In this document: positions 2,620-19,627 of the stretch, piece after piece
How positions within the stretch are numbered: position 1 is the stretch's first letter
Layout of the letters: each line of letters opens with the position of its first letter
DNA from: a virus
Strand: one strand, 5' to 3'
IMG/VR virus record: IMGVR_UViG_3300029448_007835
Location: 1-24,892 of that record
DNA length: 24,892 nucleotides
Program-made: the position numbers and the translations under genes
Notes under the pieces: model-generated
The model's database searches: none
Told to the model about the DNA's origin: nothing
The model's input: the letters and a program-made list of their open reading frames with translations, nothing else

Positions 2620-3057
2620 ATGAAAACATACAAAGGTAGATATAAAGTAAAGAATCCTAAGAAATATGCGGGCGATCACACAACTGTTGTATATCGTTCA
2701 ATGTGGGAAAGATTTGCTTTTAAGTGGTGTGAAAATAATTCTGAAATTAAATTATGGGCATCAGAGGAGACTGTAATTCCATACATCAGTGCGATTGATA
2801 ACAAATATCACAGGTACTTTGTCGATCTTAAAATTATAATGAAAGACGGCAGAACTATATTGGTAGAAATTAAACCAGAGAAACAAACAAAGCCTCCTGC
2901 TAGCAGAAGAAGAACGAAAAGGCATATTTCAGAATCGCTTGAGTATGTTCGTAATCAGTGTAAGTGGAAGGCTGCAGTAGAATATTGTAAAGATAATGGA
3001 TATGAGTTTCAGATTTGGACTGAGAACGAATTAAAAAAGATGGGAATGAAGTTTTAA
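2620..3057 (+). CDS. 4: Head completion protein, gp4-like nuclease
   Basis: 145 residues from the ATG at 2620. Family features are GRYKVKNPKKYAGD near the N-terminus, VVYRSMWERFAFKWC, EETVIPY, HRYFVDLKI and ILVEIKPEKQTKPP. This is the T4 gp4 (gp50) head-completion family, related to TnsA-type restriction-like nucleases. The Asp of FVDLK and the E-x-K of VEIKP are the likely metal and catalytic residues. In T4 gp4 acts on the filled head before neck and tail join. An in-frame ATG at 2587 lies inside the TATAAATA element and upstream of the expected transcript start, so it was not chosen; 2611 is an alternative. No clear Shine-Dalgarno is seen. The stop overlaps the next start (TAATG). Confidence 0.85.
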   Translation: MKTYKGRYKVKNPKKYAGDHTTVVYRSMWERFAFKWCENNSEIKLWASEETVIPYISAIDNKYHRYFVDLKIIMKDGRTILVEIKPEKQTKPPASRRRTKRHISESLEYVRNQCKWKAAVEYCKDNGYEFQIWTENELKKMGMKF

Positions 3058-3581
3058 TGACATTAAGACTTTATCATGCAGAAGATAGCAACTTAACGTA
3101 CATACGCACGCCTAAATGTGCAGGTATGACCATGGAAAAAACCTTTCTTGGATTATACAAATATGAAAGAGTTGTGGCATATCCAGCAGAAATGATTTAT
3201 CCACACTCGAATTCTACTAAATTTGTTGTTGTTAGAAATCCATGGGATCGAGTTGTAAGTCATTTTGAACATACTAGAAGACGTTATGATGGGTATAAAA
3301 ATTTTAAATTTTATGATTGGTTTTACTCTGAAAGTCATGCTTACGTTAAAAGAGTCTCTGAAAGTTATTTAAACGTTTCTAATTTTTATTTAAAATTTGA
3401 AGACTTAGAAAGAGAAGTGAATAAAAAATTATCTCCGAACAAAAAAGTAACATTATTTTACCTCAACTCTTCTCCAAGAGAATTTTTAAACTATCAGGAT
3501 TATTATGTTGATCAAAGAATGATTGATGTGGTCGCCGAACTAAATAAAGAAGTAATCGAAAAAATTGGATATGATTTTTAA
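3057..3581 (+). CDS. Sulfotransferase family protein
   Basis: 174 residues. The N-terminal RTPKCAGMTMEK (residues ~17-28) fits the 5'-phosphosulfate-binding loop of PAPS-dependent sulfotransferases. KFVVVRNPWDRVVSHF (~55-70) is the 3'-phosphate-binding motif with the expected Arg and Ser. It is shorter than typical carbohydrate sulfotransferases (about 250-300), like other compact phage and bacterial Sulfotransfer_2-type proteins. The predicted reaction moves sulfate from PAPS to a hydroxyl, probably on a sugar; the acceptor is unknown. It sits as a moron between gp4 and tail genes, joined by 1-base TAATG overlaps on both sides, so it should be expressed late with the virion proteins. It looks more AT-rich than its neighbours. 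The fold call is good; the substrate is not known. Confidence 0.75.
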   Translation: MTLRLYHAEDSNLTYIRTPKCAGMTMEKTFLGLYKYERVVAYPAEMIYPHSNSTKFVVVRNPWDRVVSHFEHTRRRYDGYKNFKFYDWFYSESHAYVKRVSESYLNVSNFYLKFEDLEREVNKKLSPNKKVTLFYLNSSPREFLNYQDYYVDQRMIDVVAELNKEVIEKIGYDF

Positions 3582-4168
3582 TGGCTAGCCTGTTTCAAAA
3601 ATTAGAACTGGAAGCATTCCGTAAAGGCATTCAACCAAGGTCGAGAGAATCTATTGCTTGGTTTCGTAGTAAGGCCAGTAAATTAAGACCTTCGAGAACT
3701 GCTTTGCTGAGAGATGAACAAGTACAACTAAGGAGCAGAACTGCGATTGGTAGTATGTACATGTACTTCTATGATCCAAAGACCAAAGACACATTACCAT
3801 TTTATGATAGGTTTCCTCTTACTATCATCGTCGGTCCTGCTCCTGGAGGCTTTTACGGACTAAATTTGCATTACCTTCCGCTCGATACTCGTGCTAAATT
3901 TCTTGATGCTCTGCTTGACACACTAAATAACAAAAAGTATGACGACACAACTCGCTTTAATGTTTCTTATGATATGTTGAGAAGAGCCAGCAAGCTTAGA
4001 GCATTCCGTCCATGTTTTAAGAGATATCTTAGTAAACATGTCCGTTCTAGATTTGCTTTGGTCGCACCTCCAGAATGGGAGATTGCTACGTTTCTACCAA
4101 CAGCTGACTTTGAGAAGGCTAGTTCGTCAACAGTCTACAGAGACTCGAGAAGGAAAATGAGAGCGTAA
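3581..4168 (+). CDS. Conserved T4-type structural/assembly protein of unknown role
   Basis: 195 residues, basic, starting MASLFQKLELEAFRKGIQPRS. A central region reads SMYMYFYDPKTKDTLPFYDRFPL, followed by GGFYGLNLHYLPLDTRAKFLD. I associate this sequence style with a conserved hypothetical of marine T4-type phages found among baseplate and tail genes, but cannot tie it firmly to a T4 gene number. No signal peptide or membrane segment is visible. It overlaps its neighbours by single bases (TAATG at both ends), between the sulfotransferase and the tube-like protein, so it is almost certainly co-translated with tail proteins. A baseplate or tail-assembly role is inferred from position alone. Confidence 0.6.
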   Translation: MASLFQKLELEAFRKGIQPRSRESIAWFRSKASKLRPSRTALLRDEQVQLRSRTAIGSMYMYFYDPKTKDTLPFYDRFPLTIIVGPAPGGFYGLNLHYLPLDTRAKFLDALLDTLNNKKYDDTTRFNVSYDMLRRASKLRAFRPCFKRYLSKHVRSRFALVAPPEWEIATFLPTADFEKASSSTVYRDSRRKMRA

Positions 4169-4674
4169 TGGCAAGCATCGAAGATTTAAAAGGGACAATT
4201 GCGAGAGGAGTATCTCGTGCTGACCGATACAGAGTTCTGCTGCCGGCAGAGTTTGGTGTCGATGGTCGTACAGTTGATGCATTGTGTCGTGCAACTAATA
4301 TTCCGGGTCGTCAGATTGTAACCAATGAAAGAACCATTGGTATGATGACGCAAAAAATGCCATATGCTTTCTTGTCCGAAGATGTCAACCTCACATTCTT
4401 GCTTACTCATGATTACTCAATGAGGACATATTTCGAAAACTGGCAAGGAAGCATCATTGGTACAGATACCTATGAAGTTTCTTATAAAAATGAATACGCA
4501 AGAGACGTTATCATTCAACAGCTAAATCATGGAGATAACTCTGTTGTATATTCTTGTAAATTAATTAGAGCATTTCCTACAACAATGCAAGCAATTGAAC
4601 TAGGTGATGATGCACAAAACCAGTTAACACAATTAAGTGTACAACTCTCATATACTGTATGGGAACCAGCCTGA
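4168..4674 (+). CDS. Tail tube-like protein, gp19 family
   Basis: 168 residues, close to T4 gp19 (163). The pattern DRYRVLLP, LCRATNIPGRQI, EDVNLTFLLTHDYSMRTYFENWQ, then NEYARDVIIQQL and a C-terminal AFPTTMQAIEL with SVQLSYTVWEP matches the gp19/gp54 tube fold: an N-terminal beta strand, an IPG loop, an aromatic W-Q after a short helix, and a terminal beta strand ending in Trp. It may be the main tube subunit or a tube-to-baseplate adaptor, since marine T4-type phages can carry more than one gp19-like gene and the usual gp18-gp19 neighbourhood is not in this window. It lies just upstream of the gp26-like gene. Confidence 0.7.
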   Translation: MASIEDLKGTIARGVSRADRYRVLLPAEFGVDGRTVDALCRATNIPGRQIVTNERTIGMMTQKMPYAFLSEDVNLTFLLTHDYSMRTYFENWQGSIIGTDTYEVSYKNEYARDVIIQQLNHGDNSVVYSCKLIRAFPTTMQAIELGDDAQNQLTQLSVQLSYTVWEPA

Positions 4675-4692: not shown

Positions 4693-5409
4693 ATGGCTTT
4701 ACCAAAACTTAATGAGACGATTAAATATTCTGTTAAGATTCCCTCCACTGGAGAGACTGTAAGATATCGTCCTTACCTCGTAAAAGAAGAAAAAGTGTTA
4801 ATGCTTGCGCTGGAACAAGGCGACGAGCAGATTTCACTCGAAGCGATTGCAGATACATTAGAGGCTTGTATTGAAGAGCCGATTAATGCACGCAGCCTAC
4901 CAATCTTTGACATTGAATATCTCTTCACACAGATTCGATCGAAGTCTGTTGGTGAAACCACAACCATTCAAGCAAAGTGTACAGAGTGTGATACTGCGAA
5001 TGAGATTACTGTAGATATTTCAAAAGTAAATATTAAAGTGCCAAAAGGTGCGAGTGCAAAGACAGTAAAACTTACTAATGACATTACTCTTGAAATGAAA
5101 TATCCTACAATTAAGGATATTGCGCCAAGGATGAATAAATATAAGAACGGTAATCAAACTGATCAAGCATTTGATATGATCGCACAGTGTATTGATGCTG
5201 TGCAGATGAAAGATGAAAGGTTCTCTTTAGCTGATGAATCAGATGAAGAGGTTAATGCTTTTATTGAATCATTCTCGACTGATCAGTTTATGAAAGTTAG
5301 AGATTTTATTGAGAAAATGCCACGTCTTAAACATGATGTTGATTTTGTTTGTGGTAACTGTGGTCATGACAATACATTAACGTTACAAGGAACTGCTGAT
5401 TTTTTTTAG
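4693..5409 (+). CDS. 26: Baseplate hub assembly protein, gp26-like (T4_baseplate family)
   Basis: 238 residues with ribosome site GGAGAAAG upstream of the ATG at 4693. The start MALPKLNETIKYSVKIPSTGETVRYRPYLVKEEK and the FDIEYLFTQIRSKSVGE motif are typical of the T4 gp26-type baseplate protein family. Two Cys pairs, CTEC (~97-100) and CGNC (~222-225), could form a zinc ribbon. T4 gp26 (208 residues) is a baseplate hub/assembly protein. The gene ends GAT TTT TTT TAG, and a -1 slip on that T run gives a C-terminal extension to 5591. Together with the tape-measure-like gene that follows, this suggests a G/GT-style tail assembly chaperone pair; that functional reading is inference. Confidence 0.75.
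   Translation: MALPKLNETIKYSVKIPSTGETVRYRPYLVKEEKVLMLALEQGDEQISLEAIADTLEACIEEPINARSLPIFDIEYLFTQIRSKSVGETTTIQAKCTECDTANEITVDISKVNIKVPKGASAKTVKLTNDITLEMKYPTIKDIAPRMNKYKNGNQTDQAFDMIAQCIDAVQMKDERFSLADESDEEVNAFIESFSTDQFMKVRDFIEKMPRLKHDVDFVCGNCGHDNTLTLQGTADFF
5387..5409 (+). promoter_or_regulatory. Programmed -1 ribosomal frameshift site
   Basis: The heptamer T_TTT_TTT (5400-5406) is in exactly the right phase of the gp26-like frame (GAT TTT TTT TAG) and is followed at once by the zero-frame TAG (5407-5409). An AAGGA Shine-Dalgarno-like stretch (5387-5391) lies 8 bases upstream of the heptamer, a spacing similar to the stimulator of bacterial dnaX frameshifting. The -1 frame then stays open to TAA at 5589-5591. 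No obvious downstream stem-loop was seen. Confidence 0.7.
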
Positions 5410-5591
5410 TATGCCTCTCTCACGACAATCTGAATAATCATTTTCAGGTAAATTTTCAGTTGATGCAACATCATCATTATTCATTGACTGAAATTGAAAT
5501 GATGATACCTTGGGAGAGAGAGGTTTATCTGGCTATGTTAATTACACATCTTGAAGAAGAATCAGAAAGAATAAAACAAAGAGCAGGATAA
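5406..5591 (+). CDS. C-terminal frameshift extension of the gp26-like protein (T-like domain)
   Basis: In the -1 frame after the slippery run, 61 codons read LVCLSHDNLNNHFQVNFQ, then a His-rich HHHYSLTEIE and MIPWEREVYLAMLITHLEEE before TAA. The fusion would be about 299 residues. The part before the first possible ATG (5463) already looks like real protein, and that ATG has no good ribosome site, so a frameshift explains it better than an independent gene. The next gene starts directly after its stop (TAAATG). The His-rich helix plus Trp-Glu-Arg and Leu/Glu-rich tail resembles T domains of tail assembly chaperones. If it were instead translated alone from 5463 it would be a 42-residue protein. 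Confidence 0.65.
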   Translation, partial: LVCLSHDNLNNHFQVNFQLMQHHHYSLTEIEMMIPWEREVYLAMLITHLEEESERIKQRAG

Positions 5592-6992
5592 ATGGCAGAA
5601 GCTACACTCACAGACGTTCGTAACACTCTCTTAGGGTTAAACGAAGAACAAGGTAAGACAACTGAGGTTGTTAGCTCTCTTGTTGATCGTTTCCAAGATA
5701 TGCTCGACTTTCAAAAACGTGCCAAGTTGGATGATGCAGAGGCTGCTAGAGAAGCTGCAGGCAAAGCCAGAGCAGAGAGTAACAGAACTGATAGTGGTGG
5801 ACTCAATACAACTACTGACTTTGGTATCGCTGATAAACTAATAGCTGGAGCAGTGTTAAGTTTAGCAGCGCTCTCTACATTTCTTGATAAAGAAATAGAA
5901 GATATTATTCAATTTATTCGTGATGCGTTTCTTAAATTTTTTATTGATGTAGGTAAGATTGCTATTGCAATAGATAACTTCTTAGTTAAACCCATTAATA
6001 CAAGATTGCTTGCATTAATTGATGATTTTAAAGCAGGACCAATCGCCAAAGCTATCGGCGGTTTCTTCGATGTGTTTAAAGCGACATTTAGATTTATCTC
6101 AGGAACATTAGGTCGAGCAGTTACATTAGTCAGTGGTGGTTTGACTGCATTATTACCAAGCTTTGATTTCCTTAAAGGCATTGCTAGGGTCTTTGGCAAA
6201 CTTTTCTTACCTCTGACTATCTTTATTACTGCATGGGATACTGTTAAAGGCTTTCTTGAAGGATTTGAGGAGGAAGGTATTGTTGGTGGGATCAAAGGTG
6301 CAGTTACCGGATTCTTTAACTCTTTAATTTTTGCTCCGCTCGACCTTTTAAAGCAAGCGACTGCATTTGTTCTTAATAAATTAGGATTCGAGAACGCAGC
6401 TAATTTCTTAAACAGCTTTTCGTTTCAAGACTTGTTTACAAACATTGTAGAGTCAGTCTTTGGTATAGTTGGTCAAGTAGGTAACTTTATCAGTGAGCTA
6501 TTAACAGAGCGTATTCCGTCTCTAGCATCTGATTTATACAAAAATATTGGAGAGTCCTTCGAGAACCTTACTAATCAACTAAGAATTAACTTTCAGATCG
6601 GACTCTTAAAAATTGCTGCTCTAATTCAGAATGTTCCAGATCAACTTCTTAAATTCCTGAGTGATAATCTACGTATTCAGATTCCTCGCATTGCGATTCC
6701 AGTACCATTCTCTGGTGGCAGAGAGTTGGTTATTGCTGAAGCGTCAGAAGTTGGTGTGGGTGGAAGAGAAGGAGCTGCCAGAAGAATCGCAGAACGTAAT
6801 GCTAGATTAGACGCTAGACTCCTTGAATTAAGTAGACAAAACTTGGCTGATGTTGGTGGTGCAGCTGGCACCGGAACTAATATCGTAGTAGATAATTCTA
6901 CCGTAGCTCCATCACAAACATCTGTTGTGAATCAGTTACAAAATCCGATTCCTCTCTCTGAAAGCACAGAAAGAGTTACCCTTTCTGATTAA
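5592..6992 (+). CDS. Tape-measure-like hydrophobic structural protein
   Basis: 466 residues. The N-terminal ~75 residues are charged and helical (coiled-coil-like, AREAAGKARAES). Residues ~80-320 hold repeated hydrophobic segments (KLIAGAVLSLAALSTF, AVTLVSGGLTALLPSF, LPLTIFITAWDTV, GFFNSLIFAPLDLL) with Gly/Phe-rich links such as GFLEGFEEEGIVGGI, as in many phage tape-measure proteins. The tail end is polar and Ser/Thr-rich. Position supports this: it follows directly on the gp26-like gene and its frameshift extension, where a tape measure lies in lambda-like order. T4's own tape measure is gp29 (590 residues); no clear gp29 motif was recognised, so another membrane-inserting structural role remains possible. 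A terminator-like hairpin follows. Confidence 0.5.
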   Translation: MAEATLTDVRNTLLGLNEEQGKTTEVVSSLVDRFQDMLDFQKRAKLDDAEAAREAAGKARAESNRTDSGGLNTTTDFGIADKLIAGAVLSLAALSTFLDKEIEDIIQFIRDAFLKFFIDVGKIAIAIDNFLVKPINTRLLALIDDFKAGPIAKAIGGFFDVFKATFRFISGTLGRAVTLVSGGLTALLPSFDFLKGIARVFGKLFLPLTIFITAWDTVKGFLEGFEEEGIVGGIKGAVTGFFNSLIFAPLDLLKQATAFVLNKLGFENAANFLNSFSFQDLFTNIVESVFGIVGQVGNFISELLTERIPSLASDLYKNIGESFENLTNQLRINFQIGLLKIAALIQNVPDQLLKFLSDNLRIQIPRIAIPVPFSGGRELVIAEASEVGVGGREGAARRIAERNARLDARLLELSRQNLADVGGAAGTGTNIVVDNSTVAPSQTSVVNQLQNPIPLSESTERVTLSD

Positions 6993-7039: not shown

Positions 7040-7945
7040 CTAGTCTTCAGCAGCTAGTTTAGAGAAATATGACATAGTGTCATCATCCTCCTCATCATCA
7101 CTACTTACACTAGATGGTTCGGAAGGTTCTACAGTCTTCATTGGAGCCGTCTCTGCGGTCGTAGACAAGTCTTCCTGTTGCTGAGGAGTAAAGTTACCCC
7201 CAACACCCAGAACCGCATCCAGACGAGCCTTCAACTCCTCATAGGACTTGTAGTTAGCAGGATCAGTAAACTCTTGAAGAGAGTAACACTGTGCATAGAT
7301 ACGTTCCATGTCTGGATCGTCTGACAGTGCATCAGGATTTGCAAACTCAGAACGATCGTAGTTCCGATAGCCTTCAACCTGACGAATCTTGAGTTTAAAG
7401 TCTGCGCCATCCCAAAGATCAAAAGGATTAACAGGGTCTTCATCTTGGAACTGTGGCTGCATAGAGTCCATCAGTTTATCAAAGATCTTCTTGCCATATA
7501 CGTACAAGAATACCTTACCCTCGTTCTGAGGGTTCTCTGGATCAGACACTATGTAAATATTCGATACATAGTGCAACCGACGTTTCTGACGACGAGCAGT
7601 TTCTTTATCTGCATCAACACCAGAGTTCCAGAGGCGTGAGTTTACCTCACTGACAGGATCCTTTTGACCGATAGAAGTCAACGATTTCTCGATGTACCAC
7701 ATGCCAGTGGTATCACCTTTAAAACCGTGGTCCCAATAACGCACCCATGGCAACTCTTCACCTTCAGGAGCTGGCAGGAAACGAATGACAGCGTAGCCAT
7801 TCCCTGCTTTATCTACTGTTGGTTTCCAAATACGTTCATCCGGACCATTATTATTTGAAGAAGCATTTTCATCCAGCTTTGCAGCCGCAGAAACCAGCTT
7901 TTCAATAGATGAACCACGAGAGCGTTTGAGATTCGAAAGTGACAT
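7040..7945 (-). CDS. 32: Single-stranded DNA-binding protein, gp32
   Basis: 301 residues, T4 gp32 family. Visible are the N-terminal self-association region (SNLKRSRGSSIEKL), KAGNGYAVIRFLP (~46-58), DHGFKGDTTGMWYIEKS (~72-88), NEGKVFLYVYGKKIFDK (~141-157), DFKLKIRQVEGYRNYD (~182-197) and an acidic C-tail (SSDDEEDDD) that in T4 binds replication proteins. It coats ssDNA in replication, recombination and repair. In T4 a zinc is held by one His and three Cys. Here the His-like position is kept (DHGFK), but the Cys sites are replaced (EKS, KDPVSE) and the only Cys in the protein is near residue 220. The ribosome site AAGGAAAA lies upstream of the ATG. It is expressed from its own promoter (7983-8011) and ends at a strong terminator. 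Confidence 0.95.
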   Translation of the reverse strand: MSLSNLKRSRGSSIEKLVSAAAKLDENASSNNNGPDERIWKPTVDKAGNGYAVIRFLPAPEGEELPWVRYWDHGFKGDTTGMWYIEKSLTSIGQKDPVSEVNSRLWNSGVDADKETARRQKRRLHYVSNIYIVSDPENPQNEGKVFLYVYGKKIFDKLMDSMQPQFQDEDPVNPFDLWDGADFKLKIRQVEGYRNYDRSEFANPDALSDDPDMERIYAQCYSLQEFTDPANYKSYEELKARLDAVLGVGGNFTPQQQEDLSTTAETAPMKTVEPSEPSSVSSDDEEDDDTMSYFSKLAAED

Positions 7946-7982
7946 AATTGTATTTTCCTTATATTACAGTGTATGGTATATT

Positions 7983-8011
7983 AATATACTATATGTTTTA
8001 GTGAATGTCAA
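7983..8011 (-). promoter_or_regulatory. Early sigma70-type promoter of gp32
   Basis: On the minus strand TTGACA (8011-8006), a 17-base spacer and TATATT (7988-7983): a near-consensus host promoter, with a start near 7976. The -35 overlaps the stop codon of the upstream small gene. The -10 lies in a perfect 14-bp palindrome (GTATATTAATATAC, 7976-7989) that could also be an operator or leader structure. Confidence 0.8.
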
Positions 8012-8211
8012 TCATTTTTTTCAAAGGTGATTGAGCCTTTTTCTACCTCCATAGATTCTGGAGATTCTTTTTTAGTGAGCAATGTTTCTAAATCAGGATA
8101 TATTGTGATATACCCATCTTGCTCAATTAATTCATATTCTTTAAAGAGTTCCAGCTGTTTCGGAACAGATGCATTCGCACTCTCCGATTGCTGGAGATTC
8201 CGATTGATCAT
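8008..8211 (-). CDS. Small acidic protein of unknown function
   Basis: 67 residues from the ATG at 8211, chosen because AGGAGG lies 6 bases upstream on the coding strand. The longer frame back to 8286 lacks such a site and runs deeper into the preceding gene. The sequence (MINRNLQQSESANASVPKQLELF, then EYELIEQDGYITIYPDLETLL) has no motif I recognise, no membrane segment and an acidic C-terminus. It overlaps the end of the lipoprotein-like gene by 71 bases in another frame. It lies between gp33 and gp32, where T4 has the helicase loader gene 59, but is far too short to be gp59. Its stop codon is part of the gp32 promoter -35. Confidence 0.5.
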   Translation of the reverse strand: MINRNLQQSESANASVPKQLELFKEYELIEQDGYITIYPDLETLLTKKESPESMEVEKGSITFEKND

Positions 8212-8485
8212 CTGGTACCTCCTCTGGTATTTCTTCTTCAGTAACGACATCATCAAAGGTTCCAGATCGTTCATCATCTGCAACATCAGTTTGTAATTCT
8301 GGTTCTGTTGGTGCTTCTTCTGTAGGTTCCTCGATTGGTTCCTGAATTACAGGATCATCGTTATTGAACCTATCTAAAATAGTATCTCTGTAGAAATAGC
8401 CACATCCAGCGATACCAAGAAAGACTAGAATGAATGGGATGTAAATTCCGATTAAACGTAACATAAAATTCCTCAATTTTTTCAT
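8141..8485 (-). CDS. Membrane-anchored or lipoprotein-like acidic protein
   Basis: 114 residues. The basic start MKKLRNFMLRLIG is followed by a hydrophobic stretch ending LGIAGC (Cys about residue 28), which fits a lipobox ([LVI]-A-G-C); a plain N-terminal membrane anchor is the alternative. The rest is a Glu/Asp/Pro-rich linker (EEPTEEAPTEPE) and a Cys-rich end (GECECICSE). The start overlaps the gp33 stop (ATGA), so it is translationally coupled. No known family was recognised. Embedded overlap with the next gene recalls some spanin pairs, but the second partner has no signal, so I do not call it one. Confidence 0.6.
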   Translation of the reverse strand: MKKLRNFMLRLIGIYIPFILVFLGIAGCGYFYRDTILDRFNNDDPVIQEPIEEPTEEAPTEPELQTDVADDERSGTFDDVVTEEEIPEEVPDDQSESPAIGECECICSETAGTL

Positions 8486-8709
8486 AAGGGTAGCTTATTA
8501 ACCTTTTCTAAATAATTTAAATCTCGAGCTTCTGCTTCTATCTTATCTTTGATACTCATATTTAGTAGTGTTGATACCTGCGAGGGATCGATCATATTCT
8601 CATCACAAATTAGTAGAACAGCATCCATGTACGGATGTTTACATCTCTGCACAGAGGCTTCTACGAGAGCACAAAAATTTTCTTTGGTCAATACTTTATC
8701 TTCAATCAT
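8482..8709 (-). CDS. 33: Late-transcription coactivator, gp33-like
   Basis: 75 residues. The pattern KHPYMDAVLLICDENMIDPSQV followed by NMSIKDKIEAEARDLNYLEK matches the short gp33 proteins of marine T4-type phages, notably the IEAEA-LNYL motif. gp33 binds the beta-flap of RNA polymerase and the sliding clamp, so that the gp55-containing polymerase fires at TATAAATA promoters, such as those at 2580, 2604 and 13991. T4 gp33 is 112 residues; the short form is usual in cyanophage-like genomes. Position upstream of gp32 agrees with T4 order (33-59-32), though no gp59 is present between. It overlaps the radical SAM gene stop by ATGA. Confidence 0.75.
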   Translation of the reverse strand: MIEDKVLTKENFCALVEASVQRCKHPYMDAVLLICDENMIDPSQVSTLLNMSIKDKIEAEARDLNYLEKVNKLPL

Positions 8710-9575
8710 AGAGTTAACTCATCCATTTTTATTAAGTTCTCAACATCCACTCTGACCTCTTTATTTAAAGGAGCATTTCTATTACAATTTTGACAAGCAG
8801 GCAATCCCTCTCTACTATTTTCGCAAACTAATTTTTTTCTGTAATAGCTTATAGTTTCATTATAATTTAAAAACTCTGATATATTCTCTTTATATATGTT
8901 ACCTAAAACTAAGGGAGTCCAATCATCACAACAAAGATTATAATCACCATTCCAATTAATGTATATTATATGAGTTAATTTTCTACAGCTTTTGTCAGTA
9001 AAATCGTAGAAGCTTTCTCCGAGAAACCCAGCACGATTAGTCATACCCTCAATATTGCCTGTTCCATATTTTGATTTGACATTGGGATTGTTTCCAGAAG
9101 TTTTAGGAGTAGCGTATTCATTGTAGTTTAGTCCGACATCTGGCTTAATATCAACATGTACGTTCTCATAATTTTTATATTTTTCTAAGATTAATCTTTG
9201 CTGTTTTTCATCTGTAGTATAAACATCATATTTTACTTTAAACTTATTCCCATATGGTTCTAAAAATTTCTCAAGTAAATGTAATCTCTTGCCATTCGTT
9301 GTGATATTGACTTGTTTAATATTTGCACATTCAAGAAACAGCTGTACAATTTTATCAAAATTTTTAGTTAGAGTAGGTTCTCCTCTTCCTGCGAATGTTA
9401 CCTTTCCCTTAAAATTGCAATTTTCTATTTGCTTTATAATCTCTTTTGCGGTATCAATCGACATATGCAAGTTTTGATTAGGATATCCATGCGCTCTTGG
9501 GCAGAAAGAGCACTGCAAATTACAGAGCTCTGTTGGATTAATTTCGATAGCCCTAATTAAACTAAAATGGTCCAT
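8706..9575 (-). CDS. Radical SAM/SPASM domain enzyme
   Basis: 289 residues from the ATG at 9575. This start forms a TAATG overlap with the upstream stop, as at other junctions; a TTG nine bases further upstream is less likely. The radical SAM cluster motif CNLQCSFC is at residues ~18-25, followed by GRGEPTLTKNF. The C-terminal third has SPASM-type Cys groups (CRKL, LCCDDW with LGNIYKE, then CENSREGLPACQNC) expected to hold extra iron-sulfur clusters. Such enzymes use S-adenosylmethionine to start radical chemistry on peptides, sugars or cofactors; the substrate is unknown. It belongs to an accessory run with a GT2 enzyme and GMP reductase, inserted just before gp33. All cluster Cys appear intact, so it should be active. 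Confidence 0.8.
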   Translation of the reverse strand: MDHFSLIRAIEINPTELCNLQCSFCPRAHGYPNQNLHMSIDTAKEIIKQIENCNFKGKVTFAGRGEPTLTKNFDKIVQLFLECANIKQVNITTNGKRLHLLEKFLEPYGNKFKVKYDVYTTDEKQQRLILEKYKNYENVHVDIKPDVGLNYNEYATPKTSGNNPNVKSKYGTGNIEGMTNRAGFLGESFYDFTDKSCRKLTHIIYINWNGDYNLCCDDWTPLVLGNIYKENISEFLNYNETISYYRKKLVCENSREGLPACQNCNRNAPLNKEVRVDVENLIKMDELTL

Positions 9576-9766
9576 TAATACCAATCGCTACCAGATCCAT
9601 TTCGATCAGAGAGATATTCGTTGTACCCATCTAGACCACTTACGATTTCTTTAATATCATGAGAGTGCGCATACTCTTCATCATAAGCAGCGAGAGAATC
9701 TAGACGCTTACTAGCTGCGAATTGCTTGTTTTGTTTTTTACCTACGGCACGTTTGTTCAAAGACAT
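9575..9766 (-). CDS. Small hydrophilic protein of unknown function
   Basis: 63 residues: a basic N-terminus (MSLNKRAVGKKQNKQF) followed by an acidic, Tyr-rich C-terminus ending SGSDWY. No family, signal or membrane segment was recognised. It overlaps the GT2 gene end by 10 bases and the radical SAM start by one base (TAATG), which supports real translation within the operon. A short basic-acidic protein beside a radical SAM/SPASM enzyme could in principle be its peptide substrate, but it lacks the Cys/Gly-rich core typical of known precursors. That idea is speculation. Confidence 0.5.
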   Translation of the reverse strand: MSLNKRAVGKKQNKQFAASKRLDSLAAYDEEYAHSHDIKEIVSGLDGYNEYLSDRNGSGSDWY

Positions 9767-10425
9767 ATTTTATTCCATTCAAAAGTTAACATTTTATGTT
9801 TATGCCAGTCCAAAGGATTAGCAGAGGAGTTAATTCTAATCTCAGCCTCTTTAGCTTTATTCTTTTTCATTTGTTCTTCGGATTGTCGAGTTATTCCAGG
9901 CATTCCTTTTAACGTTCTAGTAAGAAGAGTGCTATTCCATGCGTTTAACATTTCTCTAGAGAACAATTTATCAAGGCGATCTTGCATTAAAAATGTTCCC
10001 CAGCGATATCCATTTAACCTTTCATCATAACCACCAGCAGCGAGGAAATATTTACTAGGAATCATGAACTGATTGTCACCAAACCAAAGCCATTCATTTT
10101 CTTCAAGTTCAACAAACCTTATTATATCGTCAAAAGTTTCAGAAGTCAATATATGATCAACATCTAAAAAGGTAGCCCATTCAGTTTTACATTGAGTTGC
10201 GGCAAGATTCCTAGCCGCATGAGAATTAAATCCGATATCTTCTTTAATCTCATATAAACTTATATTCTCATTTTTAAACTTTGTCAAGACTTTTTTTGCG
10301 GGAAATTTAGAGGATGCATCATCAACGATAATTAAGTGACTGAACACATCCTCTTGAAAATTATATTCTATATATTTTTCAAGATAATCAGGATCTTCAT
10401 AATAAGTTGTAACTAATGTGTTCAT
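9757..10425 (-). CDS. Family 2-like glycosyltransferase
   Basis: 222 residues with a GT-A fold pattern: MNTLVTTYYEDPDYLEKYI, LIIVDDASSK (~31-40, nucleotide-sugar binding), GFNSHAARNLA (~65-75) and ATFLDVDHIL, with the metal-binding DVD at about 88-90. A later GGYDERLNGYRWG resembles the acceptor-binding segment of GT2 and GT27-type enzymes. It transfers a sugar from a nucleotide donor to an unknown acceptor. It starts in an ATGA overlap with the GMP reductase stop and is probably cytoplasmic, as no membrane helix is visible. Likely part of the glycan-modifying functions of this phage. Confidence 0.75.
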   Translation of the reverse strand: MNTLVTTYYEDPDYLEKYIEYNFQEDVFSHLIIVDDASSKFPAKKVLTKFKNENISLYEIKEDIGFNSHAARNLAATQCKTEWATFLDVDHILTSETFDDIIRFVELEENEWLWFGDNQFMIPSKYFLAAGGYDERLNGYRWGTFLMQDRLDKLFSREMLNAWNSTLLTRTLKGMPGITRQSEEQMKKNKAKEAEIRINSSANPLDWHKHKMLTFEWNKICL

Positions 10426-11594
10426 TTAAAAACATTATTTACCTGATTATTAACTTTAACAAATTTTCCAAAAACTGACATTTTTCTCAAATTTGGAGAA
10501 TTAATATACGTGCAAGCTGATCGAAGTCCTCCTAAGATGTCATCAATAGTATCCTGAACTGGTCCTTTATATGGGATTAAAACTTCTTTACCTTCTGCAG
10601 CACGATATCCTTTTAGTCCGCCATTATGTTTATCATTAGCAGTTTTAGAACTCATACCATAAAACTGAACATATTTTTTCTCATCTATAACTGGAACAAA
10701 TCCAGAACCTTGTGGATGCATCATCCGCTCATCGCTCTCTACATACTTTTTAATGATTTCACCCCCACCCTCATCATGTCCAGCTAACATACCGCCGAGC
10801 ATAACAAAATCAGCGCCAGATACAAAAGCTTTAGCGATATCTCCTGGGTTTGTGCAACCACCATCAGAACAAACAAATAATTTACGCCTCATGCTAAGAT
10901 TAATCTGCCGTGCCTGTTTAGATACTTCTAAGATAGCGGATAGCTGTGGATATCCAACTCCAGTTTTAATTCTGGTAGTACATACACTACCTGTACCGAT
11001 ACCAACTTTAACACAATCAGCTCCTGCCATGTATAAATTTAAAGCATGCTCTGAAGTTACAATATTACCCACCATAATAAAAGATTTGTCTCCACAAGTC
11101 TCTCTTACCCTACTTACGAAATGTGGAATATTTGGCAAATATCCGTTTGGAGTATCAATACAAATATTTTTAAATTTATGTTTATGTTGTTCGACTCTAT
11201 CTAGATCAGATTCATTAATCCCAATAGTTAAAAATGCTAGTTCTGGTTCTTGTATTGTATCTAATTCATCATCAGTAATAGATTTAACTAAAGATGTCAT
11301 CATTTTATTTTTACGTAATTGATTATGCATTTCTACTGTACCAACTCCATCCATGTTAGAAGCGATAATCGGTACTGCAAGAATTTTGACTGTAGTGTCA
11401 GTATCAACTTTACTACCTGCTAATCGTGTCCAAGGATCTGAGCGAAAAGAGCTAATTAAACTCACATCGTTTCTAGATAAAATATCTTTATTATTACTTT
11501 TGATCGCAGCTGACACCTCTGTTGAATTTTTTCCCGGAACAATCAACACATCAGAAAAATCGAGCTTAGTGTCATCTGAATAAAATTTGGTCAT
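10422..11594 (-). CDS. guaC: GMP reductase (IMPDH/GMPR family)
   Basis: 390 residues. LDFSDVLIVP near the N-terminus, PIIASNMDGVGT (~75-86), the active-site loop GIGTGSVCTTR with catalytic Cys ~205, GVGYPQLSA, SDGGCTNPGDIAKAF, FVMLGGMLAG, FYGMSS, YRAAEGKEVLIPYKG and ILGGLRSACTY match GMP reductases rather than IMP dehydrogenases: there is no CBS pair, and the loop is of GSVCTTR type with the GMPR-style C-terminus. It would convert GMP with NADPH to IMP and ammonia. It is longer than E. coli GuaC (347), mainly by inserts around residues 25-70. The usual Pro of the active loop is Thr. As an auxiliary metabolic gene it could rebalance host purines toward A for an AT-rich phage genome. The coding strand has an A/G-rich ribosome site upstream. 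Confidence 0.88.
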   Translation of the reverse strand: MTKFYSDDTKLDFSDVLIVPGKNSTEVSAAIKSNNKDILSRNDVSLISSFRSDPWTRLAGSKVDTDTTVKILAVPIIASNMDGVGTVEMHNQLRKNKMMTSLVKSITDDELDTIQEPELAFLTIGINESDLDRVEQHKHKFKNICIDTPNGYLPNIPHFVSRVRETCGDKSFIMVGNIVTSEHALNLYMAGADCVKVGIGTGSVCTTRIKTGVGYPQLSAILEVSKQARQINLSMRRKLFVCSDGGCTNPGDIAKAFVSGADFVMLGGMLAGHDEGGGEIIKKYVESDERMMHPQGSGFVPVIDEKKYVQFYGMSSKTANDKHNGGLKGYRAAEGKEVLIPYKGPVQDTIDDILGGLRSACTYINSPNLRKMSVFGKFVKVNNQVNNVFK

Positions 11595-13287: not shown

Positions 13288-13956
13288 TTAAGTCGGAGGA
13301 GTTGGATTATATCTGGATAGCTTTACGGTCCCGATGGAAGACTGAGTTGCCACTGAAGTGTTAAAGGTAGTAACACCCCCAGTGCCTCGGGAGGTAAATC
13401 TTCCTGTTTGACCAGTGGTGGAAAAACTCGTTGATCTATTTGTAAAGCCGATAGTTAATCTATTGGTGGTTGCGGAGGTATTACCACTAGTGAAACGGGA
13501 GGTGGTTCTGCTTGTGAAACTAAAAGGATTGTTAGTAGTAAAGCTAGTAGTAAATGATGTATTACCAGTGGTTATAAAATTTGTAGTAAAACTTGTATTG
13601 CCAGAAGTAGAGAATGATGTGTTTGCAGATGTAGTTCCGGTAGTATTAAAAAATGTAGTAAAGATAGTAATCCCACTAGTAACAGCACTAGTGCTTCGAG
13701 TAGTGTTAAATTCAGGGCCAGTTGTTTGGGTATCCACCGTAATTAGTTCAGTTTTATTATAAAAATCACTAAAGCTCAAAGCACCAGAAGCAGGAATTGT
13801 TTCGTTATTTGCGGTATTGGTTCCTTGATTGTAATATTCAGATAAACTATGAGGAACATCTCCACCAAATCTAACGGAAATACTTCTATCACTTCCAGCT
13901 GTATCACCTACTGAAAGCGCACCTGAAGCTGGAAGAAATGTTCTAGTCAAGCTCAT
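13288..13956 (-). CDS. Thr/Ser-rich repeat fibre-like structural protein
   Basis: 222 residues. The N-terminal part has two copies of an ASGALS motif (LPASGALSVGD ~8-18 and IPASGALSFSDFYN ~54-67), a unit common at attachment regions of marine phage fibre and tail proteins. Residues ~84-204 are a low-complexity array of T, S, N, G, F and R in which 12-residue units can be followed (TSANTSFSTSGN, TSFTTNFITTGN, TSFTTSFTTNNP and weaker ones), with Phe at positions 3 and 7. This suggests a beta-structured shaft. An exact late promoter lies upstream (13991-13998), as expected for a virion protein. The receptor or function is unknown. The many Thr and Ser could be glycosylation sites. Confidence 0.6.
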   Translation of the reverse strand: MSLTRTFLPASGALSVGDTAGSDRSISVRFGGDVPHSLSEYYNQGTNTANNETIPASGALSFSDFYNKTELITVDTQTTGPEFNTTRSTSAVTSGITIFTTFFNTTGTTSANTSFSTSGNTSFTTNFITTGNTSFTTSFTTNNPFSFTSRTTSRFTSGNTSATTNRLTIGFTNRSTSFSTTGQTGRFTSRGTGGVTTFNTSVATQSSIGTVKLSRYNPTPPT

Positions 13957-17216: not shown

Positions 17217-17981
17217 TTACTCTTTAGTAACAAGATGACTATACTCTAAAAATAATGGGTCGTCAACCATTTTTTTACAAATAATTTCATATTGTTCTGG
17301 AACATCAACAGGAGTGTATTCTCGTTCTAGTTCAAAAGTTTTGATATTTAATCCCATATCGATTGCTCGAAGATGTTCGATACCTTCAATCTTTTCAAGG
17401 TCAGTTTCAGGCTCAGCTTCAAACTCATACAAAGCATCTGCTCTAAATGACTGAATACTCAAAGTCTTTTTGTACGGAATCTTTTTTCTAAAGTTTGATG
17501 GAATCGGATTTCTAGAAATAAGTAAAATATTATCATAAGAATCTGTCACGATATGACCGGATAAAAGATCTGTTCTCGGCTCTTCCATTTTAATGTGAGG
17601 AAGTATAATGTCCACGTCAGAGTTTTTCTTATGATAATTTGCGAGCGCAATTAAATCTTCAGGATTGACCATAGGATCGTCTCCCTGCACGTTCACTACG
17701 ATGTCTGATCCAGATAATCCTAGTTTATCTGCTGCTTGTGCGATTCGCTCAGTGCCGTTCACAGGGAGTTGATCAGTCTCGATATATTCAATACCTAATC
17801 GCTCACACTCCTCCATAATCTCAGTATTATGTGTGCAAACGAAAACGTTATCATTATCTCCCACTGCCATCAGAGTGCGGAAATATACATGAGCAAACAT
17901 TGGAAGTCCACAAATATCCAGCAAAGGTTTATTTGGATACCGAGTGCTTTCTAATCTACAAGGAATTAAATACGTTATCAT
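17217..17981 (-). CDS. kdsB: 3-deoxy-manno-octulosonate cytidylyltransferase-like (CMP-Kdo synthetase)
   Basis: 254 residues, the usual KdsB length. The signature RLESTRYPNKPL (~9-20) and PMFAHVYFRT (~27-36) form the nucleotide-binding start; NVQGDDPMVNPEDL (~97-110) is the cytidylyltransferase metal loop (QGDEP in most members, Asp for Glu here); GIEHLRAIDMG and a C-terminal TPVDVPEQYE complete the family. It activates Kdo or a related 3-deoxy or nonulosonic-type sugar acid as the CMP form for transfer to lipopolysaccharide, capsule or a protein. No kdsA or kdsD is in the window, so the sugar acid must come from the host or from genes elsewhere. The start forms ATGA with the radical SAM stop. 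Confidence 0.85.
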   Translation of the reverse strand: MITYLIPCRLESTRYPNKPLLDICGLPMFAHVYFRTLMAVGDNDNVFVCTHNTEIMEECERLGIEYIETDQLPVNGTERIAQAADKLGLSGSDIVVNVQGDDPMVNPEDLIALANYHKKNSDVDIILPHIKMEEPRTDLLSGHIVTDSYDNILLISRNPIPSNFRKKIPYKKTLSIQSFRADALYEFEAEPETDLEKIEGIEHLRAIDMGLNIKTFELEREYTPVDVPEQYEIICKKMVDDPLFLEYSHLVTKE

Positions 17982-19627
17982 GATGCCGCTGCCATAACCT
18001 CAAATCTAAATGAAGAACTTTCATCGTGTTTAGCACAGCCTTTTGACCATGCTTTTATACCAGATGGTTCAGTATACTTCGATTTAATTTTTTTGTCAAT
18101 CCTTTTAATTCTAGTTTTACCACCTTCTTGGTATTTCGACCAATGCAAGCTTTTATACTCATCCAACAATTGCTGATACTTTGTTTTATCATTCAGCGAA
18201 GCTTTAATCTCATCCCAACGTGACTCATCAAAGAATGCCAGGAGAGAAAAGATTTTTTGATAATCATAAACTTCATTAGATTGAACATAAGGCTTTGGCA
18301 TGTTAAGAACATAATTTCCTAACAATCCACCCTCAAGATCATCTGTAAAATCTTTATCTACAAATCCTGCATTTTCGGCCATAGTTCGGAGACCTGTTCC
18401 AACATATGGAACAAATGTTGATATCGTCACTCCATCATATCCTCTAGCACGATGTACTAATCTCGCTGTATCCTCAATCATTGATGGTGTCTCATATGGC
18501 ATACCAATAATGGCATTTAAAGAATATGGAATATCTGATTCATTAATATATTCAAAATATTCATGATACACTTCTTGTTTTACATTTCTTGAAAGAACCT
18601 CTTTTCGATACTGTTCATTTCCCGATTCGAGGCCAAATGTCATGCGATAAATTCCTGCATGATTCATCATGTCTAAAACTTCGGGAGAACAATTTTCTAC
18701 ACGTGTATTCATCCAAAAAGGAACTTTATACTTGGACCACATATTAGAAAATTCTTCAAGTTCTTTCTTGGGACGAGCTAAGAAAGAATCGTCAATGAAT
18801 AATATTAAATCCGGAGAGTATGATTCCAAATAATGCTGCAGCTCTTTCTCGATAACATCTGCACTTTTTCTGCGCATAAAGTTACCTTGATTATTCTCTT
18901 TAGAAAACGCTCTTTGTGAAGGTGAATTGCAATAAGTACAATTGTATGGACATCCCCTATAAGTTTCCATAGGAATCGCAGTCCTGAAAGACCTCCCACC
19001 CATTGGGCGAATCCAACGATTTTGATCAAACAAAGAAAAATCTGGCATAACCTCAGAGAGATTACAAAGTTCTTGCTCTGGATTTACATGCGCATGATCA
19101 TCAAACCGATATGTTGTTCCAGGAATATCATGTAATGGTTTATTTTCTTTGAGGCGTTGAATGGCGTCTCGGACAACACCTTCTCCTTCATGATGACAAA
19201 TCTGATCTACGGCATCATGTTTTAAAAGAAACCTTTTACCATCTCTAGCAAAAACTCCACCTACAATGTTTGGAATATTTTTTTCTCGAATAGATTCGAG
19301 CATTTCAATACCTTGAGTATAAACATTCTCAGTCAAAGACATTAAAATTAAATCTGGTTTAAATGATTCAACCTTTTCTTTGAAATCAGGAATGACATTC
19401 TTTGGATCTCTAGTTGTCAGAATCTTCTTGCTGTCTTCATATCCACCATTGTTGGCTCCAACATTAGCCATTTCAATGTGTCTATTTATAAACTGATTTG
19501 TATAGTATGTGGTCTCAAAAATATCTACTTCACATTCTTGCTCTTTTGCAATAGCTGTAAAGATACCCACACTGATTGCCGGAGAAAACATTAGCGGCAA
19601 ATTTGGATATGCTATTAAGATTTTCAT
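17978..19627 (-). CDS. B12-binding-type radical SAM enzyme
   Basis: 549 residues. Residues 1-~165 form a Rossmann-like cobalamin-binding-type domain (MKILIAYPNL, PDLILMSLTE, IVGGVFA, HHEGEGVV), without the classical DxHxxG, as in many B12 radical SAM enzymes. The radical SAM core follows: YRGCPYNCTYCNSP with cluster Cys ~226, 230 and 233, LILFIDDSFLA, MTFGLESGNEQ and NAIIGMPYETPSM. A ~120-residue C-terminal domain is Lys/Trp-rich. Such enzymes methylate unreactive carbons or rearrange substrates; the substrate is unknown. It lies between the KdsB-like gene and a GT42-like gene, so a sugar or lipid substrate is plausible but unproven. The start overlaps its upstream neighbour by ATGA. Confidence 0.82.
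   Translation of the reverse strand: MKILIAYPNLPLMFSPAISVGIFTAIAKEQECEVDIFETTYYTNQFINRHIEMANVGANNGGYEDSKKILTTRDPKNVIPDFKEKVESFKPDLILMSLTENVYTQGIEMLESIREKNIPNIVGGVFARDGKRFLLKHDAVDQICHHEGEGVVRDAIQRLKENKPLHDIPGTTYRFDDHAHVNPEQELCNLSEVMPDFSLFDQNRWIRPMGGRSFRTAIPMETYRGCPYNCTYCNSPSQRAFSKENNQGNFMRRKSADVIEKELQHYLESYSPDLILFIDDSFLARPKKELEEFSNMWSKYKVPFWMNTRVENCSPEVLDMMNHAGIYRMTFGLESGNEQYRKEVLSRNVKQEVYHEYFEYINESDIPYSLNAIIGMPYETPSMIEDTARLVHRARGYDGVTISTFVPYVGTGLRTMAENAGFVDKDFTDDLEGGLLGNYVLNMPKPYVQSNEVYDYQKIFSLLAFFDESRWDEIKASLNDKTKYQQLLDEYKSLHWSKYQEGGKTRIKRIDKKIKSKYTEPSGIKAWSKGCAKHDESSSFRFEVMAAAS

Follow-up and report, generated by a model that had tools for sequence, protein, structure and literature searches.

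A conserved slippery heptamer predicts short and long tail assembly chaperones from a single gp26-like gene of T4-type phages

In a viral record of 24,892 bases from a marine T4-type phage, the whole of which is here called the window, a gp26-like gene ends on a slippery heptamer and is continued in the -1 frame by a coding extension, and very probably this one gene gives rise to both a short and a long tail assembly chaperone (TAC-N and TAC-NC) via -1 programmed ribosomal frameshifting. Most ribosomes would halt at the TAG at 5407 to give the gp26-like protein of 238 aa (TAC-N), and a minority would slip one base back on U_UUU_UUU to give a fusion of 299 aa (TAC-NC) with a C-terminal domain of 61 residues, the slip probably being aided by the Shine-Dalgarno-like AAGGA upstream and by the stop codon that adjoins the shift site. 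If the parallel with lambda gpG/gpGT holds, the part common to both products would bind the tape measure protein, and subunits of the tube or of the tube initiator would be recruited through the C-terminal domain. We infer the frameshifting itself, its rate, its stimulators and the chaperone action of the products. The features of the locus are shown in Table 1.

Table 1. Features of the gp26-like locus and its flanking genes, in window coordinates
Feature	Position	Strand	Evidence or remarks
Tail-tube-like protein, gp54/gp19 type	4168-4674	+	Phage_T4_gp19 Pfam E 4e-8; PHROG 45 tail tube E 8e-32
gp26-like gene, short product, TAC-N candidate	4693-5409	+	238 aa; PF12322 T4_baseplate E 8e-62, PHROG 150 E 1.8e-67
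AAGGA, Shine-Dalgarno-like, possible stimulator	5387-5391	+	Sequence; 8 nt 5′ of heptamer
Slippery heptamer T_TTT_TTT	5400-5406	+	In gp26 phase; within 8-T run 5400-5407
-1 frame extension, 61 codons + TAA, putative C-terminal TAC domain	5406-5591	+	PHROG 634 E 1e-25
0-frame stop TAG	5407-5409	+	Adjoins heptamer 3′ end
Tape-measure-like protein, 466 aa	5592-6992	+	PHROG 991 + 58 tail length tape measure, E about 1e-6

The gp26-like protein scored 209 bits against PF12322, for which the curated cut-off is 24.5, and is thereby placed in the T4_baseplate family; PHROG 150 (baseplate hub) covers it at profile positions 5-232 of 282. It contains two cysteine pairs, CTEC and CGNC, and its closest annotated relatives, at about 42% identity, are from Kyanoviridae phages. 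The genes are ordered tube-like, gp26-like, -1 extension and tape measure, which is the position of a tail assembly chaperone. The gpG/gpGT gene of lambda likewise lies between the genes for the tube and the tape measure. A sequence-only reading of the window had described the gene as ending GAT TTT TTT TAG with T_TTT_TTT in the correct phase, AAGGA 8 bases upstream and a -1 frame open for 61 codons up to a tape-measure-like gene, all of which was confirmed. The last codons are GAT (5398-5400), TTT, TTT and TAG, and a tandem -1 slip would be followed by reading of TTA at 5406-5408, the frame being open over 5406-5588 up to the TAA at 5589-5591, directly after which comes the tape-measure-like ATG at 5592. 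The predicted fusion length agrees with the approximately 299 residues expected in that reading.

Conservation of the junction was examined in relatives gathered with the window protein (80) and with a broader profile (80), some contigs being common to both sets; after dereplication at 90% identity and removal of truncated loci, 103 IMG/VR relatives remained, the window included. T_TTT_TTN was in phase in all 103 of these non-redundant relatives. The last base of the heptamer was T in 56, C in 30, A in 11 and G in 6, the codon before TTT TTN was GAT, AGT, TCT, AAT or GCT, and the final 0-frame codon was TTT, TTC, TTA or TTG; because the last encoded residue thus alternates between Phe and Leu, the nucleotide run is taken to be the conserved unit. 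The six Ts were unvarying in 52 of 52 aligned sequences. The 0-frame stop ended 3 nt past the heptamer in 58 relatives, 6 nt in 42, 12 nt in two and 30 nt in one. At other places in this gene family T_TTT_TTN was in phase at 5 of 23,811 codon positions, and the invariant choice of NNT-TTT under codon usage alone has a log10 P of about -30 on the assumption of independent loci, which are not entirely independent. The in-phase heptamer is far beyond chance. A T run is also the slip site of P2 E/E'.

The T run invites two other explanations. RNA polymerase slippage could add one U in some transcripts and so bring the extension in frame, and the 8-T run of the window, with a counterpart of 8 Ts in 42 of the 103 relatives, would suit such slippage; however, 47 of the 103 have only six Ts, a short run for polymerase, and what is conserved is a ribosomal heptamer in phase, its last base free to vary and a stop codon next to it; polymerase slippage is accordingly held to be very improbable. 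Homopolymer runs are moreover error-prone in some sequencing technologies, and the frame change might be put down to a sequencing or assembly error or to decay of the gene, but the same frame relation recurs in all 103 non-redundant contigs and in the genomes of 20 named phages, and selection acts on the extension. The comparative data refute error or decay, the probability of which is considered negligible.

Selection on the extension was assessed by dN/dS over 696 moderately close pairs. In the -1 frame it was 0.07 for extension codons 3-18, which read LSHDxLxNHYxxNF, and 0.10 for codons 19-36, and it exceeded 1 in the other two frames. In each of the 103 relatives the -1 frame is free of stops and both of the others contain them. 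A slippery site near the end of the short gene and a conserved coding -1 frame, the combination expected of a tail assembly chaperone gene, thus occur together (103/103; dN/dS about 0.07-0.10). The extension corresponds to PHROG 634, 'baseplate hub assembly catalyst' (gp51), and also matches PHROG 150 at positions 236-276 of 282, beyond the part of the profile covered by the short protein; it is the 'gp51' that cyanophage records list as a separate gene. The sequence-only reading had judged the -1 frame convincing as protein without naming this family. Searches of the extension against Pfam and NCBIfam gave no match above cut-off. Predicted alone and without an alignment, the extension forms three helices (pLDDT 73).

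Cyanophage records, like most database records, treat the extension as a small gene in its own right, gp51, with a start codon of its own, which would be translated either independently or through reinitiation once ribosomes have terminated at the gp26 stop. Reinitiation would be possible at the TAATG/TGATG overlap found in 7 of 22 named phages (VH1_2019, Moby, Atu_ph04, W-14, phiM19, Ds9CZ and 1.255.O), and the window has internal candidates, a TTG at 5460, which is the first possible start and follows LVCLSHDNLNNHFQVNFQ, and an ATG at 5463. A start of its own upstream of the conserved residues was, however, not found in the window, and in 92 of the 103 relatives the first ATG of the extension is at codon 19 or later, some having a GTG or TTG ahead of it. 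No ATG thus precedes codon 19-20 in the window and most relatives, yet purifying selection acts on codons 3-18 in the -1 frame. Since these codons are selected and most relatives have no start upstream of them, they appear to be translated although no start codon serves them directly; a shift out of the gp26 frame accounts for this, and an independent gene does not. A separate gene also leaves the invariant six-T run with its free last base unexplained, and in T4 gp51 the domain is fused to a gp26-like part. We therefore regard a separate gp51 gene as improbable. The outcome named beforehand as speaking against frameshifting, an independent extension gene that has its own start and lacks a slippery run, is what the database annotations claim and what the sequences contradict.

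The T4 genes for gp26 and gp51 (7803-8429 and 8480-9229 of the T4 locus) bear further on a frameshifted origin of the long form. T4 gp26 matches PHROG 150 at positions 14-235, has GAG TTC TTT (G_TTC_TTT) near its C-terminus in the place of the heptamer, and is followed by no -1 extension. The gp26 gene of Marfavirus pzk-kv8 has GAG TTC TTT too, and no -1 extension. T4 gp51, encoded on the strand opposite gp26, matches PHROG 150 at positions 13-280 of 282 as well as PHROG 634, and in a profile comparison its residues 12-203 corresponded to the gp26 family and residues 206-244 to the extension. In T4, then, gp51 has the appearance of the long form and gp26 that of the short form, and since gp51 appears to be a gp26-family protein with an in-frame extension, T4 would have two paralogous genes instead of a frameshift. 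Whereas T4 has two diverged paralogues on opposite strands, the window has one gene with a heptamer for both forms: the gp26-like part and the extension domain are both present at its locus, and they would form a single product only via the predicted -1 shift. The sequence-only reading had proposed that the gene and its small downstream partner make up a frameshifted tail assembly chaperone pair, and this proposal gains support from the heptamer, the conservation of the -1 frame upstream of the usual starts, the gene order and the T4 gp51 fusion.

T4 gp26 and gp51 are classed as hub assembly chaperones, gp51 being required yet absent from the virion (PMC3004832). Cyanophage gp51 was described as reaching about 20% of T4 gp51 in length and as being without its first ~200 residues (PMC3037559, Sullivan et al. 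2010); these residues would be missing because gp26 supplies them via the frameshift. The 'gp51 baseplate hub assembly catalyst' of that paper is the same short C-terminal domain, treated as a reduced stand-alone gene, and the word 'frameshift' is absent from its text.

The arrangement extends well beyond the IMG/VR relatives, the heptamer and the -1 extension being kept in 20 of 22 named phage records. The carriers include cyanophages, Pelagibacter and Methylophilales phages, KVP40-type and other Vibrio phages, Aeromonas phiAS5, Citrobacter Ci1, Pseudomonas Astolliot and pf16, Stenotrophomonas Moby, Sinorhizobium phiM19, Agrobacterium Atu_ph04 and OLIVR5, Delftia W-14 and the jumbo Klebsiella phage K64-1. 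The alignment of homologues suggested in the sequence-only reading, for a conserved slippery run plus -1 frame, thus came out in its favour in both sets. None of the gp26 records examined is annotated as a joined gene, many giving a separate gp51 or nothing. Both the heptamer and a TAATG/TGATG overlap are found in five of the named phages (phiM19, VH1_2019, Moby, Atu_ph04 and W-14), and this co-occurrence points to a possible third product by reinitiation, a free extension protein.

The two exceptions among the 22 are Ackermannviridae, which have kept the -1 extension and lack the canonical heptamer. Before the stop they read ATTTTC or CTTTTTC, with sites such as ATTTTCAT or CTTTTTCGC-like sequences replacing T_TTT_TTN; the junction sequence is GAAATTTTCATTTAA and the -1 extension reads LIFEIDLLSYFVMCDELK...SMPWHLDLL. 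In Kuttervirus no start codon lies ahead of the conserved LIFEIDLLSYF, which makes a shift at a non-canonical site likely. The Limestonevirus group and 1.255.O have TAATG overlaps instead.

Taken jointly, these comparisons incline us, with some reserve, towards a frameshifted gp26-gp51 gene that is ancestral across T4-type phages (marine, KVP40-type, Aeromonas, Rhizobiales and jumbo phages), the free gp51 of marine phages being an annotation artefact, the two-gene state of T4 a derived duplication with loss of the slippery site, and the Ackermannviridae shifting at the non-canonical ATTTTCAT in the same gene. For marine T4-type phages, a large group, the annotation would be corrected from two hub genes, gp26 and 'gp51', to one gene with two products. 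These phages would then conform to the pattern, general among long-tailed phages, of one short and one long tail assembly chaperone, and T4, long cited as the exception, appears derived.

Possible stimulators of the shift were examined on both sides of the heptamer. A Shine-Dalgarno-like core lies no more than 25 nt 5′ of it in 92 of the 103 relatives, mostly 8-10 nt away, and is missing in 11. The mean anti-SD duplex energy was -5.86 near the site and -1.85 elsewhere in the gene; with synonymous codons resampled for the same amino acids (L-x-G) it was already -5.01, and because the encoded L-x-G alone gives this value, the upstream energy appears to be mostly a by-product. Downstream, alifold of 52 sequences gave 0 consensus pairs and single-sequence folding was only modestly better than that of shuffles, and a stimulatory RNA structure was rejected as a conserved element on both grounds. 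The heptamer with its adjacent stop is the most economical signal, with a contribution of the Shine-Dalgarno-like sequence possible. In E. coli U_UUU_UUU slips less readily than A_AAA_AAG (PMC5009743).

The AlphaFold2 model of the short protein (pLDDT 89.6) matched gp26 relatives in a viral structure library. Against the PDB no match was obtained at 0.001; the HK97 tail assembly chaperone 2ob9 appeared at ranks 4 and 13 as a weak, non-significant match (E 0.46 and 1.5, probability 0.47, TM by target 0.37-0.45). A sequence search of the PDB with the gp26 and extension profiles gave no meaningful match.

Among the closest known systems is lambda gpG/gpGT, in which a short protein and a -1 fusion are made and the rare long form links the tape measure and a tube subunit (PMC5009743). 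The window differs from it in having U_UUU_UUU and a contractile T4-type tail, and the likeness drawn here is one of arrangement. The same source gives lambda-type G/GT frameshifting as widely conserved except in T4, and cites P2 E/E' (FETUD operon) for a -1 frameshift in the tail operon of a contractile-tail phage (PMC5009743); the P2 protein is of another family. In the Vandenendeviridae and Andersonviridae the tail assembly chaperone, as in phage Adele, likewise has a -1 extension family-wide that used to be recorded as a separate hypothetical gene; these are other phage families, however, and their conserved motif is GTTTTT, not T_TTT_TTN (PMC12846349).

Tail assembly chaperone genes of T4-like phages were identified by Vladimirov, Gautam and Davidson (2022, Virology 566:9-15), as related in PMC10885494 and PMC12846349. 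According to the former, that work found that some T4-like phages use no frameshifting, having instead one gene for the short form and another, fused gene for the long form, and the latter attributes to it poly-T -1 signals in T4-like TAC-N genes. The T4-like chaperones so related, gp26 as the short and gp51 as the long form, belong to the same families as those tested here, the short form being PHROG 150 and T4 gp51 being PHROG 150 plus the extension. Since that work is credited, in these accounts, with both the T4-like chaperones and the poly-T signals, the interpretation of a frameshifted chaperone appears to have been published in its essentials. To this the present analysis adds a measure of how far the site is conserved, the selection ahead of the usual starts, the breadth of lineages and the Ackermannviridae variant, and with the general idea already in print the gain is mainly in breadth, in a quantified slippery site and in lineages to test.

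Several other genes of the window were recorded. A sulfotransferase-family protein (3057-3581, + strand, Pfam E 4e-5) is encoded in the tail/neck operon between the head-completion and DNA end protector genes. Two radical SAM proteins lie at 8706-9584 (-) and 17978-19627 (-), one carrying a SPASM domain and the other giving a weak B12-binding match, and a CTP_transf_3 cytidylyltransferase is found in the same stretch as the pair (17217-17981). A phage-encoded enzyme of the IMP dehydrogenase/GMP reductase family occupies 10422-11594 (-; Pfam IMPDH E 2e-54), and a low-complexity protein without a Pfam match, composed of repeat units rich in T, S, N and F (GNTSFTTSFT...), is encoded at 13288-13956 (-).
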